From Auraticoccus monumenti (GTDB taxonomy: Bacteria > Actinomycetota > Actinomycetes > Propionibacteriales > Propionibacteriaceae), in assembly GCF_900101785.1 (NCBI RefSeq), contig NZ_LT629688.1, forward strand, positions 2,790,001 through 2,854,000: a DNA stretch of 64,000 nucleotides, read 5' to 3'. The position numbers and the translations under genes were made by a program. This document shows, piece by piece, positions 47,901-64,000 of this stretch; the stretch's first letter is position 1, and each line of letters begins with the position of its first letter. The notes beneath the pieces are model-generated. The model saw only the letters and a list, made by a program, of their open reading frames with translations. It made no database searches and had not been told where the DNA came from.

Positions 47901-48372
47901 CGACCCGGCGTCCGCTGGCGTCCTCCTCGCCCAGGTGGGCCGCGACCGGCGCGAACCAGGGCTCGGCGGCCAGCTCGTCGAAGACGGCGAGCAGGGTCCA
48001 GACCAGGCGGCGGGGGTGCCAGGGGTCGCCGTCCTCGTCCTCGCCCAGGACCCGGCGGACCGTGTCGTCGAGCAGTCGGCTGAGGGTGGGCATGGCCACC
48101 CCGGCGCAGATGCCCTCACCGCCGGCGTCGAGCCGCTCGGCCAGGGACTGGGCCAGCCAGCGCTCCACCCCGGGGGTGGGGACGCAGACCAGCTCGGTGG
48201 CGAAGGGGTCGCTGCCGGGGGCGGGGGTGGCGAGCAGCGCCGCCAGCCCGTCGGCCAGCAGGTCGCCCCGGGCGCTGCGGTGCAGGACGATGCCGGGCGC
48301 GCGCGCGGGAGGCGCGCTCGGCGGGAGCGGGGCGTCGGCGGGCTCGAGGCCGTCCAGCAGGTCCTGGGTCAT
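44908..48372 (-). CDS. recC: RecC: exodeoxyribonuclease V gamma subunit
   Basis: An 1154-residue RecC. The landmarks are IVLHRSARGDLLADGLAALL, TPGVERWLAQSLAERL, MPTLSRLLDDTVRRV and a helicase-like fold without Walker motifs. The C-terminal RecB-like nuclease fold (SDLKRFLTHPGQAFVRARFG) lacks catalytic residues, as in E. coli RecC, which scans for Chi. ATG 48372 has a -10-like TAGGGT about 9 nt upstream, so its transcript probably has almost no leader. recC is the first gene of the recCBD operon. Confidence 0.93.
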   Translation of the reverse strand: MTQDLLDGLEPADAPLPPSAPPARAPGIVLHRSARGDLLADGLAALLATPAPGSDPFATELVCVPTPGVERWLAQSLAERLDAGGEGICAGVAMPTLSRLLDDTVRRVLGEDEDGDPWHPRRLVWTLLAVFDELAAEPWFAPVAAHLGEEDASGRRVGRRWTTARRLARLFAGYAAERPGMLTAWAAGRDVGSTLGALEPDLAWQPPLWRAVAARLDAPHPAARLEAACRTLHAEPERAGLPPRFSVFGPSRIDRRQLRLLEALAHDREVHLWLPHSSPGLWRRLDDEPLSVAPGPDGLLPRSSHRRPTSATTAARHRLNERLGRDQRELQLLLAALPTRQQEPVAAPTPDTLLGWLQADVQADHARPGDQRHQLRVDDTSVQLHSSHGPDRQVEVLRDVLLGLLSDDPTLEPRDVVVMCPDIETFAPLVQACFGLATEDEEGPVHPGHRLRVRLADRSLRQVNPLLELLVDLLDLATARAGAASLLDLAAAPAVARRFGFRADDQLRLAELLEQSGVRWGLDHLHRAQFGMGGFAQNTWAAGLQRMLLGVAMSEDGQPSIGHVLPLDGVDSSEVELVGGLAELVSRVRRAVTSFSEPQGVQQWVEACRTALESLTAVPTDEQWQLSHAFGQLADLVGAHPPEPSPALSPSDFRALLADELRGRPSRGNFRTGSLTMCTLSPMRSVPHRVVCLLGVDDGVFPRRGAVDGDDVLAREPVVGDRDRLSEDRQLLLDAVMSARERLVVVHSGADPRTNDRRPDAVPLRELLDALDETATTGRAGRDGRETPVSELVRTRHPLQPFAPANFTVGPGGGEPLSFDATALQGARAAARPRVPEPGLDVTALPVLDPSSTVEVSDLKRFLTHPGQAFVRARFGLVPGRDEEERPDEMPIAPDGLQRWAIGSRVLAGALQGQSWSRLRRAELLRGDLPPGPLGEALLEEVREHIDGIVRVAGIDPHQVPTTVKARVDLGAQTLSGAVTGVREDTVTALRYSKVGARHQLEAWVDLLLLAAGRPDTEWRARSIGRVDRWSQPVELAPVAPERARQLLAQLVALHLEGLQRPAPLPVQTAESYARARAAGHGDDEALAQRQVESSAARELSRDKTWSTLVGTTLEDLTAEEAGERLHAATGVRHRFGALALTVWQPLLQHRGQR

Positions 48373-50197: not shown

Positions 50198-50368
50198 AGG
50201 GGTCCCTTTCTGGACGGGGATGGTGTCCCCATCCGACCGGTCACGAGCCACGCGCCGGTGACGCCCTGCCCACCAGCGGGTGATGGCTCGACGGCGGGTG
50301 GACGTCGCCCGAACCGCGTGGTGGCGACCCCGGTCCCCGCTGAGCGCGAGCGACGGACCCAGCCCGCC

Positions 50369-51343
50369 TCAGCTGGCCGGGACGGTGGCTCCCGGGGGCG
50401 ACCAGGACAGCCACCGCGCGGGGTTCTCCACCAGCACGGCCTCCGTGGCCTCGTCCCCGATCGCCGAACGGACCCGCGGGAGGTAGCGCTCGGTGAGGTA
50501 GCGCATCCCCGGGAACCCGCCGTAGCCCCGGTAGCGGCTGGCCCGGGCGACGTCCCCACCCAGGAGCAGCCGGTCGCCGTGCCCGAGGTCCACGACGGCG
50601 GCCAGGCAGGCCACCAGCTCCGACTCCGGGACCGCGGCGTAGCGGGCGGCGCCGTCGTGGCCGAGGTAGGCGCCGCGCCCGGCCAGCGAGGCGTGCAGCC
50701 CGGGGTCGGGGACCCGGTCGACGTGGGCGAGCGCGACGGCGTCGGCGGGGACGCCCTCGGCAGCGAGGAGGTCCAGCACCTCGTGACCGGCCGAGCAGTG
50801 CTCCAGGTGCACCACCACCGGCGCACCGGTGGCGGCGTGGGCGGCCCCGACCGCGGTGACGGCGCGACGGGTCAGCGGTGGCAGCGACCAGTAGCCGGCG
50901 GCCACCTTGAGCACCCCCGCGCGGACGCCGGTGTGCTCACCGCCGCCGCGGGCCGAGGTCGCGTCGTCGGCGACTGCGCAGCCCTGCACCAGGTCGCGGG
51001 TGAGGCGGTCGGCCAGCTGCTCCTCGGTCAGCCCGTGCACCCAGTGCCCGTCCCCGTAGTGCTCCGGACGGTGCAGCCCGGTGGTCGCCACCACGGCCAG
51101 CCCGGAGGCCGCCGACAGCCGGGCCAGCGCGGCCGGTGACCGCCCGAGCCCCAGCGGGGTGGCGTCCACCACGGTGTCGGTGCCGTGCGCGCGGACGTCA
51201 GCCGCCTCGGCGGTGGAGGCGTCCTCGTCGTCCAGCTCGTCCCCGGGCAGCAGCGGGCTCACCTGGAAGAAGTGCTCGTGGTAGTTCACCCGCCCGAGCC
51301 GGTCGGCCGCGACGTCACCGAGCACCGTGCGGACGGTCCCCAT
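50369..51343 (-). CDS. Phosphotriesterase-family metal hydrolase
   Basis: A 324-residue amidohydrolase-fold protein of the phosphotriesterase-like group. It starts with a short strand and VNYHEHFFQ, the HxH metal pair. KVAAGYWSLPPL is near the carboxylated Lys region, and VVVHLEHCSAGHE and VALAHVDRVPD give further His ligands; LLLGGDVARAS provides the Asp. In sugar operons such proteins are usually lactonases, or hydrolases of phosphorylated sugars. It is the last gene of the catabolic operon; ATG 51343 shares one base with the stop of the gene upstream (TGATG). Confidence 0.85.
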   Translation of the reverse strand: MGTVRTVLGDVAADRLGRVNYHEHFFQVSPLLPGDELDDEDASTAEAADVRAHGTDTVVDATPLGLGRSPAALARLSAASGLAVVATTGLHRPEHYGDGHWVHGLTEEQLADRLTRDLVQGCAVADDATSARGGGEHTGVRAGVLKVAAGYWSLPPLTRRAVTAVGAAHAATGAPVVVHLEHCSAGHEVLDLLAAEGVPADAVALAHVDRVPDPGLHASLAGRGAYLGHDGAARYAAVPESELVACLAAVVDLGHGDRLLLGGDVARASRYRGYGGFPGMRYLTERYLPRVRSAIGDEATEAVLVENPARWLSWSPPGATVPAS

Positions 51344-52287
51344 CAGCCCGGGTCGGCGGCCAGGGCGCTCAGCCGCTCCACGGTCGCGGGAGGCATCTCG
51401 ACGTGGAACACCTCGGCGATGACCTGGGTCCAGCCGTGGATGAAGTAGCGCCACCCGTCGACGACGGTCAGGTCGCGCTCCTCCTGCTGGGCCCGGGCGT
51501 CGGCCAGCAGCTCCAGGCTGCCGCGGTAGTTCAGCTCCCACACCCACGAGGAGCGGGGGAAGGTGACCCCGCGCGAGAGCGGGGAGCCGGGACGGTCCTT
51601 GCCCAGACCGGTGGCGTTGACCACCAGCGAGCCGGCCGGCAGGTCGGCCAGCAGGTGGTCGGCGGGGCCGTCGACGAGCTCGTAGCCGAACAGGTCGGGG
51701 TCGAGACCGCCGCGCCGGTGGACCCCGGCGAGGTGGTCCAGCCGGGGCTGGTCGACGTCGGTGCAGACGATCCGGGCCGGCGGGTCGGCGCGCTGGGCCA
51801 GGCACCAGGTGATGGCGGCCCCCGCACCCCCCGACCCGAGGCACAGCACCTGGGCCGGGGACCCGCTGAAGTGCCCCTCGGGGAGGAACTCGGCCATGGC
51901 CAGGGCCGCGGTGACCGGGTCCTTCGCGTGGCCCAGCAGCCGGCCGTCGCGCTTGGAGATGGAGGAGACCTCACCGCACAGCCGCGCGAAGTCGTCCAGC
52001 TCGTCGAAGAGGTCCGCGGCCGCGGCGTGCACTGAGATCTTGTGGGTGGTCACCAGCGCGCCCAGGTGGTCCGGGTCGTCGCGGATGGACTCGACCAGGG
52101 CGCGGTAGGTCTCCGGCGGGGCGTCCAGGGCGACGTCGTGGCCCTGCATCCGCCGGGTGGGCAGGCCGAGCTCCTCGGCCCAGCGCGGGAAGATGCGCAT
52201 GATCGAGGACGAGCCGGTGCTCACCCCCACGAAACCCATCCGCGGGCCGGTGGCCGACGGGTCGGTGGTCAGCGGGTCGGTGGTCAC
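51343..52287 (-). CDS. Shikimate dehydrogenase-like oxidoreductase
   Basis: A 314-residue protein with the AroE-like two-domain fold. N-terminal marks are FVGVSTGSSSIMRIFPRWAEELG and ALVTTHKISVHAA, where the Lys takes the place of the AroE catalytic lysine. The NAD(P) domain has VLCLGSGGAGAAITWCLA. The AroE substrate residues are not cleanly matched (GSSS instead of the SxS context), and it sits in a sugar operon, so a sugar-acid or cyclitol substrate is more likely than shikimate. GTG 52287 overlaps the aldolase stop (GTGA). Confidence 0.8.
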   Translation of the reverse strand: MTTDPLTTDPSATGPRMGFVGVSTGSSSIMRIFPRWAEELGLPTRRMQGHDVALDAPPETYRALVESIRDDPDHLGALVTTHKISVHAAAADLFDELDDFARLCGEVSSISKRDGRLLGHAKDPVTAALAMAEFLPEGHFSGSPAQVLCLGSGGAGAAITWCLAQRADPPARIVCTDVDQPRLDHLAGVHRRGGLDPDLFGYELVDGPADHLLADLPAGSLVVNATGLGKDRPGSPLSRGVTFPRSSWVWELNYRGSLELLADARAQQEERDLTVVDGWRYFIHGWTQVIAEVFHVEMPPATVERLSALAADPG

Positions 52288-52949
52288 AGGGCCGCCTCCT
52301 GCCAGGCGCGCTGGTACTCCCCGGCGCGGGTGGTCAGGGCGTCCCAGTCCCCGGCGGCCACGGCGGCCGGGGGGCAGAGGTCGCTGCCCGCCCCGACCGC
52401 GGCCACCCCCGCCTTCCGCCAGGCGGGGAGGTTGTCGGGGGAGACGCCGCCGGTGGGCATGAAGGCCACCGTGGGGAACGGCCCGCGCAGCGCGCCGAGG
52501 TAGGCGGGTCCGCCCAGGGAGGCCGGGAACAGCTTGACCACGTCCGCGCCCAGCGCCAGCGCGGTCATCACCTCGCTGGGGGTGATGGCCCCCAGCAGGC
52601 AGGCGACCCCGGTCTCCTTCATCGCCCCGGCCAGCTCGGCGGTGGTGCCGGGGCTGACCAGGAAGGTGGCGCCCGCCTCGACCGCGGTCCGGGCCTGCTC
52701 GGCGGTGGTCACCGTGCCCGCCCCGAGCACCGCCCCCTCCGGCAGCGACTCCCGCAGCGCCGCGATGGCCCGCGTCGCCTCCGGGGTGGAGAAGGTGACC
52801 TCGATGCCCAGCACGCCGCCGGCGGCCAGGGCCTCCGCGGCGCTGACGCAGGAGCGCCAGTCCGGGGCGCGGAGGACGGCGACCACGCCGACCTCCTGCA
52901 GACGGCGGACGGTACCGGTCGGTGTCGGGGGGCTGGTCGGTGTCGTCAT
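52284..52949 (-). CDS. KDPG/KHG-type aldolase
   Basis: A 221-residue class I aldolase of the 2-keto-3-deoxy-6-phosphogluconate / 4-hydroxy-2-oxoglutarate family. The conserved parts are VVAVLRAPDW, GIEVTFSTPEATRAI with the catalytic Glu, GAGTVTTAEQ, ATFLVSPGTT and the Schiff-base Lys in ADVVKLFPAS, then FMPTGGVSPDNL. It would cleave a 2-keto-3-deoxy sugar acid, or its phosphate, to pyruvate and an aldehyde. ATG 52949 overlaps the preceding stop (ATGA). Confidence 0.93.
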   Translation of the reverse strand: MTTPTSPPTPTGTVRRLQEVGVVAVLRAPDWRSCVSAAEALAAGGVLGIEVTFSTPEATRAIAALRESLPEGAVLGAGTVTTAEQARTAVEAGATFLVSPGTTAELAGAMKETGVACLLGAITPSEVMTALALGADVVKLFPASLGGPAYLGALRGPFPTVAFMPTGGVSPDNLPAWRKAGVAAVGAGSDLCPPAAVAAGDWDALTTRAGEYQRAWQEAAL

Positions 52950-53899
52950 CGGGTGACCTCTCGGACTCGGTGGGAGGGTGGACGACCGGCCAGGACGGCC
53001 AGCACGTCGTCGACGGCCATGGTGCCCATCAGGTCGATGGCCTGCACGGTCTGGGCCGCGCTGTGCGGGGTGAGCAGGACCCGGTCGCGGAGGTCCTCGG
53101 CCAGCAGCGGGCCCGGGACGTCGCGGCCCTCGCCCTGCAGGGTGTCGGCAGCGTAGCCGCCGAGCCGGCCCGCGCGCAGGGCGTCGGCCACGGCGTGCTC
53201 GTCGACCAGGTCGGCCCGGGCCGTGTTGACCAGCAGCGCGGAGGGTCGCAGCAGACCGAGCAGGCGCCGGTCGACCACCGTGGCCCCGCCGGGGACGTGC
53301 AGGCTGACCAGGTCCGCGCGGCGGGCCAGCTCCTCCAGCCCCACCAGCGGCAGGTCGCCGGCCTCGTCGAGGAAGGGGTCGTGGCCCACGACGCTGCACC
53401 CGAGGGCCGCCACCCGCGAGGCGAACGCCCGGCCCACCCGCCCGGCCCCGACCACGCCGACGGTCAGGGCGGAGAGCTCGCGACCGCGTCGCGGGGACCA
53501 GTCCCCGCCGCGCACCGCCCGGTCACCGGGGGCGACCTGGCGCAGGACGGCCAGGGCCAGGGCCAGCGCGTGGTCGGCCACGGCACCGGTGTTGGCCCCC
53601 GGGGTGTGGGTGACCACGACACCCCGCTCCGCGGCGGCGGCCAGGTCGACGGCGTCCACCCCGACCCCGTAGCGGGCCAGCACCCGCAGCCCCGGTGCGG
53701 CGTCGAGGTGCTCGGCGGTGACCGGCCCGACCCCGGCCACCCAGGCCGAGGCCCCGGCCAGGGTGTCGCGGCAGGCGTCCAACGGGTGGTCCGGGGGGAG
53801 CCGCCGCACCGTGCACCCGGCCACCCGGAGCCGGTCGAGCAGGTCGACCTCGCCGGAGGAGAAGGACCGGCTGGAGACGACGACCAGCGGAGCGGTCAC
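52946..53899 (-). CDS. D-2-hydroxyacid dehydrogenase (first of two)
   Basis: A 317-residue NAD-dependent dehydrogenase of the phosphoglycerate-dehydrogenase family. RYGVGVDAVDLAAA, the Rossmann loop VGVVGAGRVGRAFASRV and LVNTARADLVDE are present. The catalytic Arg, Glu and His are found in the last of these (NTAR), in LQGEGRD and in LLTPHSAAQT. It would interconvert a 2-oxo acid and a D-2-hydroxy acid. A second, divergent copy lies at 60324-61295 in the same operon. GTG 53899 overlaps the kinase stop (GTGA). Confidence 0.9.
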   Translation of the reverse strand: MTAPLVVVSSRSFSSGEVDLLDRLRVAGCTVRRLPPDHPLDACRDTLAGASAWVAGVGPVTAEHLDAAPGLRVLARYGVGVDAVDLAAAAERGVVVTHTPGANTGAVADHALALALAVLRQVAPGDRAVRGGDWSPRRGRELSALTVGVVGAGRVGRAFASRVAALGCSVVGHDPFLDEAGDLPLVGLEELARRADLVSLHVPGGATVVDRRLLGLLRPSALLVNTARADLVDEHAVADALRAGRLGGYAADTLQGEGRDVPGPLLAEDLRDRVLLTPHSAAQTVQAIDLMGTMAVDDVLAVLAGRPPSHRVREVTR

Positions 53900-55392
53900 C
53901 CGTCGCCCCGGGGGAAGGTCGGCTCGAGGGCCCGGTACAGCGCGGACCAGCGCGGCAGGGCGGCCGCGAAGGCCTCGGTCCGGTCCAGGGAGGGCTCGAA
54001 GCGGGCGGTCTCGCGGGCCAGTCCCCGGGCGGCGGTGACGTCGTCCAGCAACCCGGCGCCCACCCCGGCGACCACGGCCGCCCCCAGCGAGTTGGCCTCG
54101 TCGACCACGTCACGACGCACCACCGGGGTGCCGAAGGCGTCGGCGAAGAGCTGCAGCCACAGGTCGCTGCGGGCCCCGCCGCCGATGGCGGTGACCTGGC
54201 CCACGTCGGCGCCGCAGTCGCGGAACGCCTGGACGCAGGTGAGCAGGTTGAGCACCACCCCCTCCAGCACCGCACGCACCAGGTGGCCCCGGCCGTGGGC
54301 GCGGGTCAGCCCGAGGAAGGCCCCGCGGGCGTCGGGCTCCCAGTGCGGGCTCCGCTCGCCGAGCAGGTGGGGGAGGAAGTGCAGGTGGTCGTCCAGGGCG
54401 GTGGCCCCGGCCGCCTCGGCCAGCAGCGCGCTGATCCGGGTGCCGTCGGTGCCGGGCTCCAGCACCTCACCGACCCACTGCAGGGAGCCGGCGCCGGCGA
54501 CCATGGTGGCGGTGGGCACGAAGAGGCCGGGGACGACGTGGTTGAAGGTCATGGTGCGCATGCCCGGGTCGTGCAGCGGCGCGGTGGCGGCGAAGGACAC
54601 CCAGGAGGAGGAGCCGAGGTAGAGGTAGGCGCCGTCCTCCGGTGTCACCACGCCGGCGCCGACGGCGGCCATCGGGCCGTCCCCGCCGCCGAGCACCACC
54701 GGGGTGCCCGCGAGCAGGCCCACCTCCTCGGCGACGGCGGCCCGCACCCCGCCGACGACCGTGGCCGAGGGCACGACCCGCGGCATCAGCGCGGGGTCGA
54801 GGTCGGCGGCGGCGAGCAGCCGTCCGGACCAGGTGCCGGTGCGCTGGTCGAAGGCGTTGGTGGACGAGGCGTCGGACGGGTCGGTGACCAGCTCCCCGGT
54901 GAGCCGGGCCACGACGTGGTCCTTGGCCTGGCAGACAGCGGTGGTGCGGGCGAAGGCCTCCGGCTCGGAGTCGCGGACCCAGGCCACCTTGGTGAGTGAG
55001 TAGGTGGGGTTGAGCCGGTGCCCGGTGATGGCGTAGGTGTCCTCCACCGGCACCGAGCGGGCGATCCGGTCGGCCTGGGCCGAGGAGCGGTGGTCGGCCC
55101 AGATCAGCGCGGGACGGACGGGGCGGTGCGCCCGGTCCAGCAGCACCGCTCCCATCATCTGCCCCGAGAGCCCGACCACCGCGACCTGGTCCGGTGCGGT
55201 GCCGGTCTCGGCGAGCAGCCGACGGGTGGCCTCGCAGCAGGCGCGCCACCAGTCCTCGGGGTCCTGCTCGACGACGCCACCGGGGGCGTAGCGGGTGGGG
55301 TAGCCCACGGTCACGGCGGCCACCAGGTGGCCGTCGTCGGTGTGCAGGGAGGCCTTGTCCCCGGTGGTACCGAGGTCGTGGGCGAGGATCAC
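53896..55392 (-). CDS. FGGY-family carbohydrate kinase (first of two)
   Basis: A 498-residue sugar kinase with the ATPase fold: MILAHDLGTTGDKASLHT (phosphate 1 loop), VVGLSGQMMGAVLLDRAH, ALIWADHRSSAQA, GGGDGPMAAVGAGV and GGGARSDLWLQLFAD. It phosphorylates a pentulose, a polyol or a related sugar. It resembles xylulokinase/gluconokinase-type enzymes, and it differs from its operon partner at 57401-58894, so the two probably use different substrates. GTG 55392 starts 1 nt after the cupin isomerase stop. Confidence 0.92.
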   Translation of the reverse strand: MILAHDLGTTGDKASLHTDDGHLVAAVTVGYPTRYAPGGVVEQDPEDWWRACCEATRRLLAETGTAPDQVAVVGLSGQMMGAVLLDRAHRPVRPALIWADHRSSAQADRIARSVPVEDTYAITGHRLNPTYSLTKVAWVRDSEPEAFARTTAVCQAKDHVVARLTGELVTDPSDASSTNAFDQRTGTWSGRLLAAADLDPALMPRVVPSATVVGGVRAAVAEEVGLLAGTPVVLGGGDGPMAAVGAGVVTPEDGAYLYLGSSSWVSFAATAPLHDPGMRTMTFNHVVPGLFVPTATMVAGAGSLQWVGEVLEPGTDGTRISALLAEAAGATALDDHLHFLPHLLGERSPHWEPDARGAFLGLTRAHGRGHLVRAVLEGVVLNLLTCVQAFRDCGADVGQVTAIGGGARSDLWLQLFADAFGTPVVRRDVVDEANSLGAAVVAGVGAGLLDDVTAARGLARETARFEPSLDRTEAFAAALPRWSALYRALEPTFPRGDG

Positions 55393-55393
55393 C

Positions 55394-55969
55394 TCAGCCC
55401 CCGTAGGGCACGAGCTCGAAGGCGTCGCCCAGGCGCACCGCCCGCGCCCCCATCCCGTGGTCCAGCACCCACTGGTAGTCGTGGCCGGCGCTGCCGGGGT
55501 AGACGGCCAGGAAGCGGTAGGGCTCGTCGGCCGACACGTTGACCGAGCGGTGCGCCCAGCCCGGGGGGATGTAGCCGATGGTGCCCGGCGACATGTCGAG
55601 CCAGGCGTGCTCGGCGCCGTCGAAGAGCAGCAGCCCGCCGGTGCCGGTCAGGCCGAGGTAGATCTCGCCCTGGGGGTCGGGGTGCTGGTGGCCCTTGGTC
55701 ATGAAGAGCTCACCGGACAGCTCGCCGGGGGAGATGGTGGTGATCGACTGGGGCAGCTCCCGTGGCGTCTCGGGCACCGGGGAGGAGTGCACGGAGTAGA
55801 CGACCTTCTCAGAGCCGCGCAGCTCCTGCCAGGCCCGCTGGTCCCGGAACAGCCCCTCGAGGTCGGCCATCCGCCGGGTCAGCACGGGGCCGGCGGGGTC
55901 GACGACGGCGGTGGCGGCGTCGAAGGTGATCTGGAAGGGCCGCAGCGGCGGGGTGGCGTAGCCGCTCAC
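55394..55969 (-). CDS. Cupin-type glucose-6-phosphate isomerase
   Basis: A 191-residue cupin of the archaeal-type phosphoglucose isomerase family. Metal ligands are in GHQHPDPQGEIYLGLTG (two His and the Glu) and in PPGWAHRSVN (the last His). ELRGSEKVVYSVHSS and PYRFLAVYPGSAGHDY are further family segments. It would interconvert an aldose and ketose phosphate; glucose 6-phosphate is the family substrate, but within this operon another sugar phosphate is possible. GTG 55969 overlaps the rpiA stop (GTGA). Confidence 0.88.
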   Translation of the reverse strand: MSGYATPPLRPFQITFDAATAVVDPAGPVLTRRMADLEGLFRDQRAWQELRGSEKVVYSVHSSPVPETPRELPQSITTISPGELSGELFMTKGHQHPDPQGEIYLGLTGTGGLLLFDGAEHAWLDMSPGTIGYIPPGWAHRSVNVSADEPYRFLAVYPGSAGHDYQWVLDHGMGARAVRLGDAFELVPYGG

Positions 55970-56736
55970 CGGTCCTGCTCCGGGCGGGTGAGCGGGAGGT
56001 CCAGGGGGAAGGTGAAGGTGCCGGCGGTGCCGTCGGGCCAGCCGAAGACCACCTCGTCGGCGATGCCCACGAAGAACCCGTTCTCCACCACCCCGGGGAT
56101 GGTGTTGAGCTCCACGGTGAGCTGCTCGATGTCGCGGGCGGTGCCTAGGCGGGCGTCGAGGATGAAGTTGCCGTTGTCGGTCACCACCGGTGAGCCGTCG
56201 CGCTCGCGGCGGTACAGGTCGACGTCGGCGGGGTAGCCGTGCTCGACCAGCAGCCGGCGGACGGCCCGGCGCGTCGTCCCCCAGGAGTACTGCACGACCT
56301 CGATCGGCAGCGGGAAGGCCCCGAGCTGCTCCACCGCCTTGGTGTGGTCGGCCACCACCACCATCGTCGCGCTGGTGCGGGCGACCAGCTTCTCCCACAG
56401 CAGGCAGGCCCCGCCGCCCTTGATCATGGCGCCGTCGCGGTCGATCTCGTCCGGCCCGTCGACGCAGACGTCCAGCTGCTCGACGTCGTCCAGCTCGACC
56501 AGGGTGATGCCGAGCTCCAGGGCCAGGTCCCGGGTGCCGTTGGAGGTGGGCACCCCCACGACGTCCAGACCGTCGGCGACCAGCTCGGCCAGGGCGCGGA
56601 CGAAGTAGTGCGAGGTGGTGCCCGAGCCCAGGCCGAGGCGGGCCCCGTCGAAGGCGTGGGTGCGGGCGGCGAAGCGGCCGGCGGCGAGCTTGGCCCGGTC
56701 CTGGTCGCTGCGGGTCTCGATGCTGGGCGTGGTCAT
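55966..56736 (-). CDS. rpiA: Ribose-5-phosphate isomerase A
   Basis: A 256-residue RpiA. The phosphate loop is GLGSGTTSHYFVRAL; the catalytic region shows CVDGPDEID and KGGGACLLWEKL with the Asp and Lys of RpiA, and the catalytic Glu is in LLWEK. TDNGNFILD and TIPGVVENGFF close the family pattern. It interconverts ribose 5-phosphate and ribulose 5-phosphate. It is about 30 residues longer than typical RpiA, mainly at the ends. ATG 56736 overlaps the HAD stop (ATGA). Its place in a dedicated operon suggests pentose phosphates among the intermediates. Confidence 0.93.
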   Translation of the reverse strand: MTTPSIETRSDQDRAKLAAGRFAARTHAFDGARLGLGSGTTSHYFVRALAELVADGLDVVGVPTSNGTRDLALELGITLVELDDVEQLDVCVDGPDEIDRDGAMIKGGGACLLWEKLVARTSATMVVVADHTKAVEQLGAFPLPIEVVQYSWGTTRRAVRRLLVEHGYPADVDLYRRERDGSPVVTDNGNFILDARLGTARDIEQLTVELNTIPGVVENGFFVGIADEVVFGWPDGTAGTFTFPLDLPLTRPEQDR

Positions 56737-57404
56737 CTGGTCTCCGGTCGGGACGGGCGGGGGAGGTCCCCCGCGACGATGGCGGGCAGGTCGGCGTAGC
56801 GGGGGAGGCGGGTGCCGTGCACCTCGGGCGGGGCCCAGGACACGGCCAGGAAGTCCACCCCGGCCGCCTCGGCGCAGCGCTGGTCGATCACGGAGTCCCC
56901 GACCAGGACGCTGGTGGCCGGGTCGGCGCCGATACCGGCCAGGGCGGTGGTCAGGTGCTCGGGGTGCGGCTTGCTGCGGGTGGGCCGGTCCCCGCCCACC
57001 ACCACCGGGAAGAACCGGGCCACGCCCAGCCCCTCCAGCACCTGGTGGGCGATCACCTCGACCTTGTTGGTGCAGACCGCCATCGGCACCCCCGCGACGG
57101 CCAGGGCGTCCAGCGCCTCCGCGACGCCGTCGTAGAGGACCGAGTCCACCACCGGGCGGGCCCGGTACTCCGCGACGTAGGCGGCCGCCACCGCCTCCTC
57201 GGGCGCGCCGGACGCGCCGGAGAGCAGGATGGCGCCCTGGACCAGCGCGGCGACGCCCTCACCGAGCAGCGGCACCACCTCGGCGGCACTCAACGGGCGC
57301 CCGCCCCAGGGGGCGAGAGCGAGGTCGAGGGCGACGGCGATGTCGTGGCTGGAGTCCACGAGGGTCCCGTCCAGGTCGAACACGACACTGGCGTAACCGG
57401 TCAC
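56733..57404 (-). CDS. HAD-family phosphatase (phosphoglycolate-phosphatase-like)
   Basis: A 223-residue HAD hydrolase with VVFDLDGTLVDSS (nucleophile Asp), a helical cap, VAVCTNK-like PMAVCTNKVEVIAHQ (motif II) and SVLVGDSVIDQRCAEAAGV (motif IV). It resembles phosphoglycolate phosphatases (Gph). In this operon it may remove phosphate from a dead-end sugar phosphate or serve as a sugar-acid phosphatase. GTG 57404 overlaps the stop of the second kinase gene (GTGA). Confidence 0.9.
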   Translation of the reverse strand: MTGYASVVFDLDGTLVDSSHDIAVALDLALAPWGGRPLSAAEVVPLLGEGVAALVQGAILLSGASGAPEEAVAAAYVAEYRARPVVDSVLYDGVAEALDALAVAGVPMAVCTNKVEVIAHQVLEGLGVARFFPVVVGGDRPTRSKPHPEHLTTALAGIGADPATSVLVGDSVIDQRCAEAAGVDFLAVSWAPPEVHGTRLPRYADLPAIVAGDLPRPSRPETR

Positions 57405-58894
57405 GGGCGGTCTCCTCCGTACAGGGCGGGGTAGAGGCGGCGGAACTCCGCGTACCCCCGGTCGTGGACGGCCACCCGGTCCGGGTCCGGCTCGGTGGTG
57501 CTGGTGACGTGCACCCGCCGCAGCGCCTCGCGGAGCGAGGGCCACTGCCCGGTGCCGACGCCGGCCAGCAGGGCGGCGCCGTGGGCCGCCCCGTGCTCAC
57601 CGCCGGAGACCGAGCTCACCGGGGTGCCGAGGACGTCGGCCAGGGTCTGGGACCAGATCGGGTAGACCGAGGCGCCACCGGAGATCCGGACGTCGTCGAC
57701 GGCCAGACCGAGGCCGGCCAGCACGTCACGGACCTCGCGGACGTTGAGCAGCGCGCCCTCCACCACCGCGCGGGTCATGTCGGCGACGTCGTGGCGCAGG
57801 TCCAGCCCGACCCAGGCGCCGCGGGCACCGGGGTCCACGTGCGGGCAGCGCTCGCCCACCAGGTAGGGCAGGAACCGCAGTCCCTTGGCCCCCACCGGGG
57901 AGCGGGCGGCGAGCTCGGCGAGGGCCTGCGTCGCGGGCCGCTCGCCGAGCAGCGGGGCCAGCGCGTCGCGCCACCACTGCAGCGCCCCGCCGGTGGTCAG
58001 GGCCACCCCCATCACGTGCCAGCGGTCCGGTGCGTTGCCGCAGGAGACCTGGACCCGGCCGCCGACGTTGTCGGGGCAGTGGTCGACGGCCGCGCCGAGG
58101 ATGCCCGCGGTGCCCAGCGTGATGCCGAGCAGCCCGGGGGACTCGATCCCCATCGAGGTCGTCTGCAGCACGGAGTCCCCGCCACCGCCGACCACCGGCG
58201 TCCCGGCCCGGAGGCCGACCAGAGCGGCCGCCGCGGCGGTGAGCCGTCCGGTCACGTCGGAGGACTCGACCACCGGGGGCAGCAGGCTGGCCGGCAGGTC
58301 GAGGGCGGCGAGGAGGTCGGTGCTCCAGCGCCGGGCGCGGACGTCCAGCAGTCCGGTGCCGGAGGCGTCGGAGACCTCGGTCACCCGGTCACCGGTGAGG
58401 TGCAGCCGCAGCAGGTCCTTGGGGTTCAGCACCACGTCGGTGCGGGCGAAGGTGTCGGGCTCGTGGTTGCGGAGCCAGAGGATCTTGCCCACGGTGTAGC
58501 CCGGCAGCGCGGTGTTGTTGGTCAGGGCCAGCAGCCCGTCCAGACCCCCGACCTGCTCCAGCAGCCACTCGCACTCCGCGCCGTTGCGGTTGTCGTTCCA
58601 CAGCACGGCCCGGCGCAGGACCTGGTTGGCGGCGTCCAGGGCCACCATGCCGTGCATCTGCCCGCAGAGTCCGATGGCCACCACGTCGTCGGGGTCGATC
58701 CGGGCGGCCACCGCGCGGACGGCCTGCACCGTGGCCGACCACCAGTCCGCCGGGTCCTGCTCCACCCAGCCCGGTTCGGGCAGGTGCAGGGGGTAGCCGA
58801 CGGTCTCGGTGGCCAGCACCTCGGCCGACCCGTCCACCGCGACGACCTTGACCCCGGAGGTGCCGAGGTCGATGCCCAGCCAGGTACCGCTCAC
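57401..58894 (-). CDS. xylB: Xylulokinase-like FGGY kinase (second of two)
   Basis: A 497-residue kinase with the xylulokinase pattern: WLGIDLGTSGVKVVAVD, IGLCGQMHGMVALDAA, AVLWNDNRNGAECEWL, NNTALPGYTVGKILWL and VGGGGDSVLQTTSMGI. These match XylB more closely than the first kinase does, especially GQMHG and the LPGxTxxK segment. It would convert D-xylulose to D-xylulose 5-phosphate, but other ketopentoses are possible. GTG 58894 overlaps the aldehyde dehydrogenase stop (GTGA). Confidence 0.9.
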   Translation of the reverse strand: MSGTWLGIDLGTSGVKVVAVDGSAEVLATETVGYPLHLPEPGWVEQDPADWWSATVQAVRAVAARIDPDDVVAIGLCGQMHGMVALDAANQVLRRAVLWNDNRNGAECEWLLEQVGGLDGLLALTNNTALPGYTVGKILWLRNHEPDTFARTDVVLNPKDLLRLHLTGDRVTEVSDASGTGLLDVRARRWSTDLLAALDLPASLLPPVVESSDVTGRLTAAAAALVGLRAGTPVVGGGGDSVLQTTSMGIESPGLLGITLGTAGILGAAVDHCPDNVGGRVQVSCGNAPDRWHVMGVALTTGGALQWWRDALAPLLGERPATQALAELAARSPVGAKGLRFLPYLVGERCPHVDPGARGAWVGLDLRHDVADMTRAVVEGALLNVREVRDVLAGLGLAVDDVRISGGASVYPIWSQTLADVLGTPVSSVSGGEHGAAHGAALLAGVGTGQWPSLREALRRVHVTSTTEPDPDRVAVHDRGYAEFRRLYPALYGGDRP

Positions 58895-60324
58895 CGGCCG
58901 TACCTGACCCGCAGGTGCTTGATGTGCAGGTAGCCGAAGAGACCCTCGCGGCCGTGCTCGTAGCCGTGGCCGGAGCCCTTGCGGCCGCCGTAGGGGGCGT
59001 TCATGATGCCGGCGTCGGGGTTGTTGACCGCCACGTTGCCGAAGTCCAGCGCGTGGCCGATCTCGAACACCTCGGTCAGGTCGCGGGCGTAGAGGTAGGC
59101 GGCCAGCCCGGCGGTGGTGCCGTTGGCCAGGGCCACGGCCTCCTCGGTGGTGTCGTAGGGGGTGACGCCGACCACCGGGCCGAAGGTCTCCTCCTGCGCC
59201 AGCAGGGTGGTGGGCGGCACCTCGTCCACGACGGTGGGGGCGAACCAGGTGCCCGGCCGGTCGATCACGGCGCCGCCGGTGGTGACCCGGGCGCCGTCGG
59301 CCACGGCCTGCTGGACGTGGGCCACGCACCGGTCGCGGATGCCGGCGTTGGTCACCGGGCCCACGTCGGGGTCCTTCGAGCCGGGGCCGACGGTGAGCGC
59401 CTCGACGCCGGCGGTCAGCTTCTCGACGAACTCCCGGTGCACCGAGCGGTGCACGTAGACCCGGTTGATGGCGATGCAGATCTGCCCGGCGTTGCGGAAC
59501 CCGCGACGCAGGCACCCGGCGACCGCCTCGTCGACGTCGGCGCTGGCGGTGACCACCTGGGGGCAGGAGCCGCCCAGCTCCATCGACAGCGGCATCGCCT
59601 TGGCCACCGAGCGGCTGATCGCCGCGCCGGTGGCTGTGGAGCCGGTGAACGCCAGCTTGTCCAGCCCGGGGTGGGAGGCGAGCGCCCGTCCGGCGACCCC
59701 GGCGCCCAGCACGAGGTTGGCCACCCCGTCGGGGAAGCCGGCGGGCTGCAGCAGCGCCATCAGCGCCACGGCGGAGGAGGGGGTGTACTCCGAGGGCTTG
59801 ACCACGATGGTGCAGCCGGCGGCGAGCGCGGCGGCCAGCTTCCAGCCGATCAGCTCCAGCGGGTAGTTCCAGGGGGTGATGGCCCCCACCACGCCGACCG
59901 GCTCGTAGCGGACGATGCTGGTCACGCCGTGCTGCTCGTTGGGGATGGTTTCGCCGTGGACGCGGACGGCCTCCTCGGCGTAGTAGTCGAAGGCGTCGGC
60001 CAGCTTGTCGACCTCGTTGCCGGCCTCCCGCAGGGGCTTGCCCATCTCCAGCGTGACCAGGCCGACGAGCTCGTCGCGGTGCTCGCGGACACCGTCGGCC
60101 AGCCGGTGCAGCAGCGTCGCCCGGTGGAAGGGCGTGGTGGTGCGCCAGTCGGCCAGGGCCTCGCGGGCGGCGGCGACGGCCGCGTCGACGCCGGCGCCGT
60201 CGGTGTCGGGGATCCGGGTGACCACCTCACCGGTGGCGGGGTCGACCACGTCGACGACGGGCTCCCCGGCCTGCACCCAGGACCCGCCGACGAGGTTGAG
60301 CGGTGCGGGGACGGTGGGGGACAT
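58891..60324 (-). CDS. NAD(P)-dependent aldehyde dehydrogenase
   Basis: A 477-residue aldehyde dehydrogenase. Motifs are PVGVVGAITPWNYPLEL (cofactor side), TIVVKPSEYTP, FTGSTATGAAISRS, MELGGSCPQVV with the general-base Glu, RNAGQICIAINR with the catalytic Cys, and EETFGPVVGVTPYD. It is close to succinate-semialdehyde and 2-oxoglutarate-semialdehyde dehydrogenases. If the FAH protein upstream is a keto-deoxy-pentonate dehydratase, oxidation of 2-oxoglutarate semialdehyde would be the natural next step. ATG 60324 shares one base with the preceding stop (TGATG). Confidence 0.92.
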   Translation of the reverse strand: MSPTVPAPLNLVGGSWVQAGEPVVDVVDPATGEVVTRIPDTDGAGVDAAVAAAREALADWRTTTPFHRATLLHRLADGVREHRDELVGLVTLEMGKPLREAGNEVDKLADAFDYYAEEAVRVHGETIPNEQHGVTSIVRYEPVGVVGAITPWNYPLELIGWKLAAALAAGCTIVVKPSEYTPSSAVALMALLQPAGFPDGVANLVLGAGVAGRALASHPGLDKLAFTGSTATGAAISRSVAKAMPLSMELGGSCPQVVTASADVDEAVAGCLRRGFRNAGQICIAINRVYVHRSVHREFVEKLTAGVEALTVGPGSKDPDVGPVTNAGIRDRCVAHVQQAVADGARVTTGGAVIDRPGTWFAPTVVDEVPPTTLLAQEETFGPVVGVTPYDTTEEAVALANGTTAGLAAYLYARDLTEVFEIGHALDFGNVAVNNPDAGIMNAPYGGRKGSGHGYEHGREGLFGYLHIKHLRVRYGR

Positions 60325-61295
60325 CAGCTCTCCTGGGGGGATCGGGTGACGGCGCAGCGCAGCGGCTCGCCCTGCAGCGCGCGGCCGGCCTCCTCCGCGG
60401 CCAGGCGCTGGAGGTTGTCCAGCGAGGTCTCGGAGTAGAAGGCGGCGTGCGGGGTGAGGAGCACGTTGTGGATCTCGCGCAGCGGTGAGGCGTCGCCGAG
60501 CGGTTCGGGGTCGAAGACGTCGAGGCCGGCCCCGGCCAGCCGGCCCGAGGTCAGGGCCTCGGCCAGCGCCGCCTCGTCGACCAGCCCGCCGCGGGAGGTG
60601 TTGACCAGCACGCACCCCTCGCGGACCCGGGCCAGGAGGTCGCGGTCGACCAGGTGGTGGGTCTCCTCGGTGACGGGGACGTGCAGGGAGAGGGCGTGCA
60701 CGGCAGGCAGCAGCTCCTCCAGCCCGACCAGCTCGATGCCGTGCTCGGCCACCCGGGCCGGGTCGGCGTAGGGGTCGGTGGCCAGCAGCCGGAACCCGAA
60801 GGGGCGCAGCCGGTCGGCCAGGGAGCAGGCGATCCGGCCCGCCCCGACCAGACCCACGGTCATGGTGGGGAAGGAGGGAAGCGGCCCGACCCGGCCCGGG
60901 GGCACCCAGCCGTCCTCGCGGATGCCGTGGTCGTAGACGGGCAGGCGGCGCAGCAGGGCCAGCAGCAGGGCGGCAGCGTGGTCGGCGACGGTGTCCACCC
61001 CGTAGTCGGGCACGTTGGCCACCTGGACGCCCAGCCGCTCGGCCGCGGCGAGGTCCACGTTGTCCACCCCGACGCCGTAGCGCACCACGGCGGCGCCGGG
61101 GGCCATCGCCGCCAGCTGCTCGGCACCCATCGGGGCGAAGTTGACCAGGGCGACGTCGGCCCCGCGGACCGCCTCGGTGGTCTCCTCGGCCCCGCTGCAC
61201 TGGTGCACCTGGAGCTCGGCCCCCAGCCCGGCGGCGACGGCCTCCTCGTGGGCGGTGTCGACGAAGGCGTGGTCGGTGACCACCACACGGCTCAT
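60324..61295 (-). CDS. D-2-hydroxyacid dehydrogenase (second of two, CtBP-like)
   Basis: A 323-residue enzyme of the phosphoglycerate-dehydrogenase/CtBP branch. RYGVGVDNVDLAAAERLG, VGLVGAGRIACSLADRLRP, LVNTSRGGLVDE, LDVFDPEPLG and LLTPHAAFYS are present, with catalytic Arg, Glu and His in place. It is clearly related to, but well diverged from, the copy at 52946-53899. The two could act on different 2-oxo acids, or on opposite steps of one pathway. ATG 61295 overlaps the FAH stop (ATGA). Confidence 0.92.
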   Translation of the reverse strand: MSRVVVTDHAFVDTAHEEAVAAGLGAELQVHQCSGAEETTEAVRGADVALVNFAPMGAEQLAAMAPGAAVVRYGVGVDNVDLAAAERLGVQVANVPDYGVDTVADHAAALLLALLRRLPVYDHGIREDGWVPPGRVGPLPSFPTMTVGLVGAGRIACSLADRLRPFGFRLLATDPYADPARVAEHGIELVGLEELLPAVHALSLHVPVTEETHHLVDRDLLARVREGCVLVNTSRGGLVDEAALAEALTSGRLAGAGLDVFDPEPLGDASPLREIHNVLLTPHAAFYSETSLDNLQRLAAEEAGRALQGEPLRCAVTRSPQES

Positions 61296-62470
61296 CGCAG
61301 CAGCCCCCGGCCGGCCAGGTTGGCCACCAGCGCTCGCACGCCGACCGTCCACGGGGGCGCGGTCTCGGAGTGGGTGACCTCGTTGACCAGCGTGCCGAGG
61401 GCGTGGTTGGCGATCAGCACGTGGTCGCCGCGGTGGTGGGTGAACCCCTCGCCGGGGGCGTCGCGGTCCTCGGTGGGGGCGAACATGGTCCCGGTGAACA
61501 GCACGAAGCCGTCCGGGTACTGGTGGTGGTCGCCGTGGGCGTGGCCGACCAGCTCCTCGAAGGTGCGGCTCATCTCGGCCACGTGGGAGACGGCCTCGAC
61601 GGAGAACCCGTCCTCCCCGACGACCCGCATCGAGACGTCGGTGGCGCGCAGGGCGTCCAGGGTGAAGTCGCCGGAGAAGAGCCGGATGAAGGGGCCCAGC
61701 GCGCAGGAGGCGTTGTTGTCCTTGGCCTCGGTCAGCAGCAGGGCGCTGCGGCCCTCGAAGTCGCGCAGGTTGACGTCGTTGCCCAGGGTGGCCCCGACCA
61801 CGCGCCCGGCCGAGGAGCAGGCCAGCACGACCTCGGGCTCGGGGTTGTTCCAGGTGGAGCGGGCCAGCACGCCCACCTGGGCGCCGACGCCGACCGCCGA
61901 CAGGGGCTGTCCCTTGGTGAAGATCTCCGGGTCCGGCCCGATGCCCACCTCCAGGTACTGCGACCACAGCCCCTCGGCGACCAGCCGCTCCTTGATGGCG
62001 GCGGCCTCCGCGGAGCCCGGACGCACCCGGGTCGCCGCCTGGACGGTGTCGCCGAGCCGCCCGCGCAGCGCCAGCGCCTGAGCGGGGTCGCCCTTGGCCT
62101 GCTCCTCGATGACCCGCTCGACCATGCTGCGGGCGAAGGTCACCCCGGCGGCCTTGAGGGCGGACAGGTCGACCGGGGCCAGCAGGTGCGGGCGGTCGAC
62201 GGACCCGGCCAGCGAGGCCTCCAGGACCTCCTCCAGGTCCCAGCTCCCGCTGCCGGCCGCCGCGGTCGCGGCCCCCGCCGGGTCGGCGTGGTCGAGGAGG
62301 TCGCTCATGGTCGGGCCGAGCTCGGCGGTCACGTCCAGCAGGCGGTCCTCGCGGACCACCACGAGGTGCGGTCCGACGCCCGGCACCTCCAGGCGTCCCA
62401 CCAGGACCGCGGTGGCGCGGTCGGGGGGGAGCAGGTCGAAGGGCTTGATCAGCGTCGCGGGGACAGGCAC
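61292..62470 (-). CDS. Fumarylacetoacetate-hydrolase-family protein, XylX-like
   Basis: A 392-residue FAH-fold enzyme, first in the operon. The C-terminal catalytic part has WNNPEPEVVLACSSAG (metal-ligand Glu pair), ATLGNDVNLRDFEGRSALLL, and KDNNASCALGPFIRLF. The N-terminal half includes GVTFARSMVERVIEEQAKGD and GLWSQYLEVGIGPDPEIFTKG. As I recall them, these segments fit the 2-keto-3-deoxy-D-xylonate/L-arabinonate dehydratases (XylX) of the oxidative pentose (Weimberg) route better than true fumarylacetoacetases. Family membership is firm; the reaction is inference. GTG 62470 has GGAG 5 nt upstream. Its promoter, with an operator-like palindrome, lies just before it. Confidence 0.85.
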   Translation of the reverse strand: MPVPATLIKPFDLLPPDRATAVLVGRLEVPGVGPHLVVVREDRLLDVTAELGPTMSDLLDHADPAGAATAAAGSGSWDLEEVLEASLAGSVDRPHLLAPVDLSALKAAGVTFARSMVERVIEEQAKGDPAQALALRGRLGDTVQAATRVRPGSAEAAAIKERLVAEGLWSQYLEVGIGPDPEIFTKGQPLSAVGVGAQVGVLARSTWNNPEPEVVLACSSAGRVVGATLGNDVNLRDFEGRSALLLTEAKDNNASCALGPFIRLFSGDFTLDALRATDVSMRVVGEDGFSVEAVSHVAEMSRTFEELVGHAHGDHHQYPDGFVLFTGTMFAPTEDRDAPGEGFTHHRGDHVLIANHALGTLVNEVTHSETAPPWTVGVRALVANLAGRGLLR

Positions 62471-62506
62471 CGGTTCTCCGTATCGTCGAGCGTCGTTGCT
62501 GGCTCA

Positions 62507-62545
62507 TGAATAACATCAGACAATCTCGTCCGTCAATGTCGGACG
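62507..62545 (-). promoter_or_regulatory. Promoter of the catabolic operon with an overlapping palindrome
   Basis: On the minus strand TTGACG (62531-62536), an 18-nt spacer and TATTCA (62507-62512) form a good -35/-10 pair, giving a leader of about 30 nt. A perfect inverted repeat CGTCCG-N7-CGGACG spans 62527-62545 and covers the -35 box, a suitable place for a repressor. The neighbouring FadR-type regulator is the obvious candidate. Confidence 0.6.
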
Positions 62546-62593
62546 TTACGAAGCGTCTGGAGCGCAGGGTGCCCGCGGATGTGCGATCCGGTG

Positions 62594-62622
62594 TTGCGAG
62601 CCGTGACCGATCGTCGTACCTT
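62594..62622 (+). promoter_or_regulatory. Promoter of the FadR-type regulator gene (leaderless type)
   Basis: TTGCGA (62594-62599), a 17-nt spacer and TACCTT (62617-62622) form a near-ideal promoter. The -10 box ends 6 nt before ATG 62629, so the transcript should start at the start codon. Confidence 0.65.
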
Positions 62623-62628
62623 TGCCGC

Positions 62629-63435
62629 ATGACCCAGAGCCGGGGCAGTCGCCGACGACTGTCAGAGCGCATCGCCGACGACCTCCAGCGGGAGATCGTC
62701 AGCGAGGGCTTCGTCCCGAACCGCCGCCTCGCCACCGAGGTGGAGCTGATGGAGCGCTACTCCGTCAGCCGCACGGTGGTGCGCGAGGCCGCCAAGCTGC
62801 TGGTGCAACGCGGTCTGGTCACCGTGGCGCCCGGGCGCGGCATGGTGGTCGCGGAGTTCGACGGCGCCCAGATCGCCGAGCAGTTCTCCCTCGTGCTGCT
62901 GGCCAGCGACGGCACCTTCGACCAGCTGCTCGAGCTCCGGCTGGCGCTGGAGGTCCAGATCGCCACCGCGGCCGCCGTGCACCCGTCGGTCGCGGCGCTG
63001 GACCGCCTGGAGGAGGCCGTCGCCACCGGTGAGGCGCTGCTGGGTGGGGAGGAGCCGGTGGACACCGACGCCTACCTCGACGCCGACATGACCTTCCACG
63101 AGGCGCTGGCCGAGGCGAGCGGCAACCCGTTCTTCCAGCTGGTCTGCCGCCCCATCAACACCTTCCTGCGCTCCCACTACCTGCACCGCGAGACCTACCC
63201 CTCCGACCCTGCGCGGACGATGGTCGAGCACCGCGAGATCCTCGAGGCCCTCCGTCGCCGTGACACCTTCGGCGCCCGGCAGGCCACCGAGGAGCACCTG
63301 CTGCGCCTGATGCGCAAGTGGCGCAACGCCACCCACCCCGAGACTCCCCCCAGCATCCGCGACCTCAACTCGCAGAACACCAAGCTGTCCGCCGCCCTGA
63401 CGGTCCCGGACGCACCCACGAACCAGGAGGCCTGA
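62629..63435 (+). CDS. FadR/GntR-family transcriptional regulator
   Basis: A 268-residue GntR-type regulator with an FCD ligand domain. The winged helix is LSERIADDLQREIVSEGF... ELMERYSVSRTVVREAAKLL, with the GntR signature VSRTVVREA. The C-terminal FCD domain has DADMTFHEALAEASGNPFF, with Asp and His residues that bind a metal and a carboxylate ligand, and MVEHREILEALRRRD. Such regulators bind sugar acids and dicarboxylates. It is divergent from the catabolic operon and precedes the transporter by 2 nt, so it likely controls both. ATG 62629 is fixed by the promoter; a longer frame to 62506 would include that promoter. Confidence 0.93.
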   Translation: MTQSRGSRRRLSERIADDLQREIVSEGFVPNRRLATEVELMERYSVSRTVVREAAKLLVQRGLVTVAPGRGMVVAEFDGAQIAEQFSLVLLASDGTFDQLLELRLALEVQIATAAAVHPSVAALDRLEEAVATGEALLGGEEPVDTDAYLDADMTFHEALAEASGNPFFQLVCRPINTFLRSHYLHRETYPSDPARTMVEHREILEALRRRDTFGARQATEEHLLRLMRKWRNATHPETPPSIRDLNSQNTKLSAALTVPDAPTNQEA

Positions 63436-63437
63436 CC

Positions 63438-64000
63438 ATGTCCGACCACACCCTCTCGATCAGCCGGCGCACGTTCGGCCTGTCCGCGCTCGGTCTGTCC
63501 CTCGCCGCCGCCACCGGGTGCGGTGCGGAGTCCGGCGGCGGGGCCGGAGGTGGCGAGGGCGGTGGCACGGCCGCCTACTGCAACAAGGGGATGAACTACT
63601 TCTTCTTCGTGGTGCAGAACGAGGCGGTCAAGCGCAAGAGCGAGGAGCTCGGCTTCTCCTACCGCACCACCGACGCCAACTTCGACTCCAGCGCGCAGTT
63701 CGACGACTGGAACTCCCTGCTCATCTCCCAGCCGGCCTTCCTGATCTCGGACCCGATCGACTCCGAGGGCCTGGCCTCGCTGGCCACCAAGTCCAAGAGC
63801 CAGAACGTGCCGGTCGGGATCATCGACACGCCGCTGACCCAGGGCACGGTCGACTTCACCATCGCCTTCGACAACCAGCGCGGCGGCGAGATGGCGGCGG
63901 AGAAGATCGTGGAGCTGCTGGTGGAGAAGTACGGCTCGGAGAAGGGCAAGGTCCTCAACTGCTACGGCGCCCTCTCCTCCTCGGCCTGGCGGGCCCGCAA
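63438..64000 (+). CDS. Sugar ABC transporter substrate-binding lipoprotein, 3' end outside window
   Basis: The first 187 codons of a periplasmic-binding-protein-like lipoprotein. A twin-arginine-like SRRTFG near residue 9 and a lipobox ending ATGC (Cys28) begin it, followed by a Gly/Glu-rich linker. The binding domain starts NYFFFVVQNEAVKRKSEELG and has PAFLISDPIDSEGLASLATK and VGIIDTPL, as in the ribose/xylose type I binding proteins. It would deliver the sugar or sugar acid degraded by the divergent operon. ATG 63438 has AGGAGG 8 nt upstream. Permease and ATPase genes should follow outside the window. Confidence 0.9.
   Translation, partial: MSDHTLSISRRTFGLSALGLSLAAATGCGAESGGGAGGGEGGGTAAYCNKGMNYFFFVVQNEAVKRKSEELGFSYRTTDANFDSSAQFDDWNSLLISQPAFLISDPIDSEGLASLATKSKSQNVPVGIIDTPLTQGTVDFTIAFDNQRGGEMAAEKIVELLVEKYGSEKGKVLNCYGALSSSAWRAR

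Follow-up and report, generated by a model that had tools for sequence, protein, structure and literature searches.

Which substrate is broken down by a run of twelve genes whose products seem to belong partly to a phosphorylating and partly to an oxidative route of sugar catabolism? The question is raised by positions 50369-62470 of a 64,000-nucleotide stretch of the Auraticoccus monumenti genome (hereafter the window), where a first-pass annotation had described one catabolic operon encoding two FGGY kinases, a ribose-5-phosphate isomerase (RpiA), a cupin phosphoglucose isomerase (GPI), a HAD phosphatase, an FAH-family protein, an aldehyde dehydrogenase (ALDH), two hydroxyacid dehydrogenases (HADH1 and HADH2), a KDPG-type aldolase, and AroE-like and phosphotriesterase-like (PTE) enzymes. 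The best explanation appears to be that two catabolic modules, here called A and B, have been joined and share a single divergent GntR regulator and a single CUT2 (ribose-type) ABC transporter. Taken as a whole, with the fusion and the reactions proposed for both modules, this explanation is given a probability of about 0.45; its structural part is far firmer than its chemistry.

The two halves of the operon

All twelve genes are open and co-directional, and they follow each other without interruption on the minus strand from 62470 to 50369. Several of the starts implied by the list of open reading frames are too far upstream. Reading the stop/start junctions one by one, ten of the eleven overlap by 1-4 bases (ATGA, GTGA or TGATG), and the sole non-overlapping one, between the GPI cupin and the second FGGY kinase (FGGY2), is a gap of 1 base. 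Such a pattern is far beyond chance and supports a single, translationally coupled transcript, so the operon stands as first delimited. The gene families named for it were likewise recovered by Pfam and NCBIfam: FAA_hydrolase, two D-2-hydroxyacid dehydrogenases, Aldedh, two FGGY kinases, HAD, RpiA, GPI cupin, KDPG aldolase and PTE. The AroE-like protein is without a Pfam match but has the fold of shikimate/quinate dehydrogenases. The xylulokinase model is reached by both kinases, only just by FGGY2.

The genes divide at the RpiA/GPI junction. Genes 1-6 make up module B and genes 7-12 module A, each half has a kinase, an isomerase and a hydroxyacid dehydrogenase of its own, and among the loci compared, each module is found in other bacteria without the other. 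It is thus very probable, judging from gene content and its distribution, that the operon has this two-module structure, and the mixture of families would be due to the fusion.

To follow module A, the AroE-like protein was used as a marker in a scan of GTDB representative genomes. At least 573 loci were found, and the 80 kept for neighbourhood counts come from Actinomycetota, Chloroflexota, Bacillota, Spirochaetota and Pseudomonadota. Near the AroE-like gene there is an FGGY kinase in 67 of the 80, an HADH in 66, a PTE or a metallo-beta-lactamase-fold (MBL) protein in 65, and a GPI cupin in 62; AroE, GPI, FGGY, HADH and one of the lactonase candidates stand all together in 53. A KDPG-type aldolase is present in 35. 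Of the module B families, FAH and RpiA are missing from these neighbourhoods and ALDH is nearly so (FAH 0/80, RpiA 0/80, ALDH 1/80). Within the phylum, the AroE-like gene occurs in 8 of 396 genomes, and all 8 of these carry a GPI cupin, versus 40 of the 396 overall (hypergeometric P = 5e-9, or 5e-8 without the window's own genome, relatedness not being corrected for). In seven of these eight genomes, the two genes are no more than about 6 kb apart. These neighbourhood counts and this co-occurrence identify genes 7-12 as a recurrent unit.

The composition of module A loci varies. One subset (L064, L078, L079, L083, L087, L090, L099, L101 and L105) also has a DeoC-type aldolase and a second type of FGGY, which in several clusters lie between GPI and AroE. 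An ABM-domain protein (LsrG fold) is encoded in some Microbacterium clusters (after PTE at L043:11866-12240, and in eleven other loci). In L022, from the window's own genus, the AroE-like gene is found with a KDPG aldolase, a PfkB kinase and a tagatose-3-epimerase-like gene, next to FucU, and PfkB appears there in place of the FGGY kinase.

Module B was reached through the FAH sequence on plasmids of Paracoccus kondratievae and P. pantotrophus, where no module A gene is annotated. The order there is ABC permease, ATPase, binding protein, rpiA, RpiR regulator, HAD, xylB and ALDH, with FAH, the C-terminal binding protein (HADH) and a short-chain dehydrogenase/reductase (SDR) running divergently. 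In Auraticoccus the corresponding transport genes extend past the window end as binding protein, ATPase, permease and then SDR (to L003:5433), after which unrelated genes follow. Ten proteins are 38-57% identical between the two settings: FAH 57%, HADH1 55%, RpiA 54%, ALDH and the first FGGY kinase (FGGY1) 51% each, permease 49%, binding protein 48%, SDR 45%, and ATPase and HAD 38% each. Since the Paracoccus clusters carry them without an annotated module A gene, genes 1-6, the transporter and the SDR can be taken as a second, independent unit.

RpiA is the sole match of its kind in its own genome, none was found in 56 relatives at the threshold used, and the Paracoccus protein is nearer to it than any from the 396 phylum genomes, where identity does not exceed 50%. 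These findings point to an acquisition of module B. Beyond Paracoccus, nine loci inspected around RpiA homologues of the phylum hold lone genes, 41-47% identical, without other module B genes. The neighbours of HADH1 homologues in Roseobacteraceae are fucose-type FAH and SDR genes rather than module B, and no module B surrounds the homologue in Rhodococcus opacus. A search of twelve module A-carrying genomes, run without a positive control, found no HADH1 homologue.

Proposed reactions and their alternatives

In the order proposed for module A, FGGY2 would phosphorylate a ketose, the GPI cupin would isomerise the ketose phosphate to an aldose phosphate, and the AroE-like enzyme would oxidise C1 to give a lactone phosphate. 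This would be opened to an aldonate phosphate by the PTE-like protein, or by a UlaG-like MBL protein in alphaproteobacteria. HADH2 would then oxidise C2 to yield a 2-keto-aldonate phosphate, and the KDPG-family aldolase would split the 2-keto acid, which for a hexose would give hydroxypyruvate and glyceraldehyde-3-phosphate. Each of the six enzymes is employed once, and the best model for HADH2 is phosphoglycerate dehydrogenase, an enzyme for a phosphorylated 2-hydroxy acid. The full order comes from family knowledge and is tentative. More speculative by a small step is the view of module A as an undescribed, widespread Entner-Doudoroff-like route without a dehydratase, with lactone-phosphate formation by the AroE-like enzyme, two alternative lactonases, a phosphoglycerate dehydrogenase-like 2-keto step, and an aldolase releasing hydroxypyruvate. 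Phosphogluconate dehydratase (Edd) is absent from the operon and from the module A loci inspected, the exception in Marinovum being a separate TRAP/IlvD gene group beside module A.

The lactonase slot is filled in two ways. For the window PTE, the best NCBIfam model is the phospho-furanose lactonase NF045706, at 87.9 bits versus a cut-off of 630, so by the curated test it is not a member; its putative metal residues (H21, H23, K145, H178, H206, D263) are invariant. The structures of phospho-furanose lactonases, 3msr and 3ovg, are presumably those of D-xylono-1,4-lactone-5-phosphate lactonases. On alphaproteobacterial plasmids, PTE is absent from all six annotated loci and an unrelated MBL protein sits in its slot, mostly in the order GPI, (KDPG aldolase), AroE-like, HADH, MBL. 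These loci adjoin or lie near FGGY kinase, sugar ABC transporter, polyol dehydrogenase, SDR or HAD genes. MBL also stands in for PTE in four of the 80 loci (L089, L099, L101 and L102). It matches UlaG-type metal-dependent hydrolases, including L-ascorbate 6-phosphate lactonase (44 bits versus a cut-off of 306), and UlaG structures. Because two unrelated folds, each distant kin of a phosphosugar lactonase, fill one slot, it seems fairly probable from these sequence relationships that module A opens a phosphorylated sugar lactone.

Both types are found together in L045 (Microbacterium sp. Bi121), where one 20 kb stretch holds two AroE-like genes. A single protein of Shinella zoogloeoides (L107:11440-12783) combines the UlaG-like lactonase homologue with a low-molecular-weight phosphatase domain.

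The AroE-like protein belongs to an orphan family. The Pfam models that it fails to match include Shikimate_dh_N (PF08501), and it falls far below every shikimate dehydrogenase cut-off (TIGR00507, 29 bits versus 200). Its AlphaFold (AF2) model, with a pLDDT of 93.5, superposes on quinate dehydrogenase 3jyo (Z 28) and 5-ketofructose reductase 7cok (Z 26) at about 20% identity. Lys70 and Asp110 are invariant in ten members and presumably correspond to the catalytic pair K65/D102 of AroE, to which they were matched by motif. Since a canonical AroE lies elsewhere in the same genome, the operon gene is not the biosynthetic one.

In module B, the SDR would oxidise an imported polyol to a ketopentose, which FGGY1 and RpiA would bring into or alongside the pentose phosphates, while FAH (XylX-type) and ALDH would convert a 2-keto-3-deoxypentonate-type acid to alpha-ketoglutarate. 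D-2-keto-3-deoxypentonate dehydratase activity has been shown for FAH-family proteins (PMC7374468). The window FAH, to which 9kkt is the closest FAH structure, is 55% identical to one that adjoins SDR, gluconolactonase and IlvD/Edd genes in Niveispirillum. Its homologues sit both in the standard xylose setting (SDR, lactonase, IlvD) and in an altronate-dehydratase/ALDH setting. A second XylX-like FAH, about 60% identical, is encoded elsewhere in the genome (G000:C1:1204262-1205419, L114), a few kb from a CaiB-type CoA-transferase-like gene.

Several points weigh against this account. The KDPG aldolase is missing from 45 of the 80 neighbourhoods and is thus not an obligatory local partner, and DeoC-type or transaldolase-type genes occur in some module A loci. 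The oxidation of C1 by an AroE-fold enzyme is a guess, and to our knowledge it is not established that a KDPG-family enzyme can cleave a 2-keto acid with the C3 hydroxyl still in place. The scores of PTE and MBL fall well short of the curated cut-offs for the lactonase models concerned. As for module B, it was found intact in Paracoccus only. No sugar-acid dehydratase of the IlvD/Edd or enolase type is present among the twelve genes, the transporter genes or the SDR, and because of this the source of the 2-keto-3-deoxypentonate is left unexplained.

The missing aldolases are explained by an alternative in which module A ends in a decarboxylation. A hexulose would be phosphorylated, isomerised, oxidised to a lactone-6-phosphate and opened, after which the AroE-like enzyme would oxidise C3 and CO2 would be lost, giving a pentulose-5-phosphate that RpiA feeds into the pentose phosphates. 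This also gives RpiA a role beside module A in the window operon. However, RpiA is a module B gene, absent from all 80 module A neighbourhoods, and HADH is left unexplained, as the substrates of these enzymes are 2-hydroxy and not 3-hydroxy acids. The decarboxylation is therefore unlikely, although it fares best among the alternatives. Slightly less likely is a mundane reading, in which the kinases, RpiA, GPI and HAD serve ordinary pentose/hexose phosphorylation, and the other genes make up an ordinary Weimberg/Dahms pathway, non-phosphorylated, for a pentonate. The XylX-like FAH and an ALDH that fits alpha-ketoglutarate semialdehyde are as expected, with the KDPG-type aldolase as a possible catalyst of a Dahms-type cleavage. 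Yet the dehydratase missing from module B is missing here as well, the nearest relatives of both candidate lactonases are phospho-lactonases, and AroE and GPI are tightly linked.

Hardly more probable than the next and last alternative, the AroE-like enzyme could act on a cyclitol or a quinate-like ring, module A then being a cyclitol degradation with PTE or MBL hydrolysing a ring-derived lactone. The closest folds of the AroE-like model are indeed quinate and shikimate dehydrogenases (Z 28), and the alphaproteobacterial binding protein has a myo-inositol-binding protein of Caulobacter among its fold matches. The polyol dehydrogenases, FGGY kinases, GPI and mutarotase-type genes of these loci, however, typify open-chain sugars, and 5-ketofructose reductase is an AroE fold that handles open sugars. 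Least probable is one new linear pathway of all twelve genes for a single rare or branched sugar. One regulator, one transporter and overlapping genes make joint expression almost certain, but both halves form complete clusters apart in other bacteria and each repeats the kinase, isomerase and hydroxyacid dehydrogenase functions.

The fusion of two modules changes how the first-pass annotation is to be read. Its single novel pathway with a phosphorylated and an oxidative route is not supported, as the genes divide at RpiA/GPI, whereas its other suggestion, two converging substrates, comes close to the comparative data. It had also proposed a branched or rare sugar. The inference of a branched sugar from the gene mixture loses its basis because the halves occur separately elsewhere, and a rare sugar or a polyol is still compatible with the data. 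Our best guess for module A is a polyol or rare ketose, and for module B it is a pentitol or pentose. Beside module A in Rhizobium (L108) and Mesorhizobium (L102), binding proteins are about 60% identical to VEIS_2079 (4ry9), a structure that probably holds D-talitol. The polyol dehydrogenases near module A loci fit a polyol. In many actinobacteria, module A adjoins a D-tagatose-3-epimerase-like gene, a FucU/RbsD mutarotase or L-fucose-type genes, as named by reading their sequences. The binding protein of the window, which is that of module B, has no close relative among the solved structures searched. The pathways for D-apiose, erythritol/threitol and D-altritol/galactitol were set aside, their gene sets being without AroE, GPI and lactonase.

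In the open-access literature, a matching published operon was found for neither module nor for the whole set; within that scope, the doubt that any standard operon has this content was justified. The novelty that remains rests in module A, a widespread unit matched to no described pathway in the literature searched. If the proposed reading of module A is true, a carbohydrate pathway not found in that literature is present at more than 570 sequenced loci, spread over at least five phyla, and its central enzyme is labelled 'shikimate dehydrogenase' in public records. Functions would then be gained at once for an AroE, a PTE and a UlaG-like subfamily. The fused operon itself places two complete catabolic modules under one regulator.

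Features and surroundings of the locus

Table 1. Positions of the operon genes and of the adjoining features in the window.
Feature	Position	Strand	Remarks
FAH-family protein, XylX / D-2-keto-3-deoxypentonate dehydratase-like, 392 aa	61292..62470	-	module B gene 1
HADH1, D-2-hydroxyacid dehydrogenase ('C-terminal binding protein')	60324..61295	-	module B gene 2; ATGA overlap with FAH
Aldehyde dehydrogenase (ALDH), SSADH / alpha-ketoglutarate-semialdehyde-like	58891..60324	-	module B gene 3
FGGY1, xylulokinase-like	57401..58894	-	module B gene 4; TIGR01312 453 bits versus cut-off 380
HAD phosphatase, phosphoglycolate-phosphatase-like	56733..57404	-	module B gene 5
RpiA ribose-5-phosphate isomerase	55966..56736	-	module B gene 6; TIGR00021 235 bits
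Cupin phosphoglucose-isomerase-type (GPI), PF06560	55394..55969	-	module A gene 1; cupin metal motif HxHx6E...H present
FGGY2 ketose kinase	53896..55392	-	module A gene 2
HADH2, phosphoglycerate-dehydrogenase-like D-2-hydroxyacid dehydrogenase	52946..53899	-	module A gene 3
KDPG/KHG-type aldolase	52284..52949	-	module A gene 4; TIGR01182 197 bits versus cut-off 156
AroE-like dehydrogenase, orphan family	51343..52287	-	module A gene 5
PTE-family protein, probable phospho-furanose lactonase	50369..51343	-	module A gene 6; PF02126
Divergent promoter region, 158 bases	62471..62628	.	between operon and GntR gene
GntR (FadR-type) regulator, NanR/LldR-like	62629..63435	+	divergent from operon
Sugar-binding protein, module B transport, runs past window end	63438..64000	+	binding protein at L003:1039-2142

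Inside the divergent promoter region there is a palindrome, CGTCCGTCA-A-TGTCGGACG, at 62527-62545, which we guess to be a candidate GntR operator. As the start of the regulator, the ATG at 62629 appears more likely than position 62506. Directly downstream of the operon, on the same strand (48767-50251, minus), lies a gene for a glycerophosphodiester phosphodiesterase with DUF4996, a weak C-terminal CBM6/CBM35-like domain and an apparent signal peptide. The enzyme might supply the operon with a polyol or polyol phosphate, freed for instance from teichoic acid. Three long genes that precede the operon region (39357-48372, minus) were read from their sequences as RecD-, RecB- and RecC-like exonuclease subunits.

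Likeness to known systems

The nearest counterpart of module B is the Paracoccus cluster, all of whose components (FAH, CtBP, SDR, ALDH, XylB, HAD, RpiA and the CUT2 ABC transporter) are present around the window operon; the difference lies in the regulator, which is of the RpiR family there and GntR in the window. With the Weimberg pathway (xylXABCD, Caulobacter-type), module B has in common the protein families of the dehydratase (FAH) and the aldehyde dehydrogenase that lead there to alpha-ketoglutarate. Unlike that pathway, it is without a sugar-acid dehydratase and a lactonase, and it adds an FGGY kinase, RpiA, a HAD phosphatase and a hydroxyacid dehydrogenase.

The likenesses of module A are those of single enzymes. 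Its dehydrogenase has the fold (Z 25-28) and the Lys/Asp pair of the AroE superfamily (shikimate/quinate dehydrogenase, 5-ketofructose reductase), but differs in its low identity, in the missing Shikimate_dh_N match and in its location in sugar clusters. The window PTE shares with the phospho-furanose lactonases of NF045706 the PTE fold, the putative metal residues and its best NCBIfam score, which is nevertheless far below the curated cut-off. The alphaproteobacterial MBL is a distant relative of UlaG (L-ascorbate-6-phosphate lactonase), but it too is below cut-off, and its neighbour genes are unlike those of an ascorbate operon. As a pathway, module A is closest to Entner-Doudoroff, whose KDPG aldolase is represented in the operon by the TIGR01182 match: as in that pathway, a sugar phosphate would be oxidised to a lactone, opened, and finally split by a KDPG-family aldolase. 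In module A, however, the enzyme families differ at every step before the aldolase, and a C2 dehydrogenase, HADH2, would replace the dehydratase.

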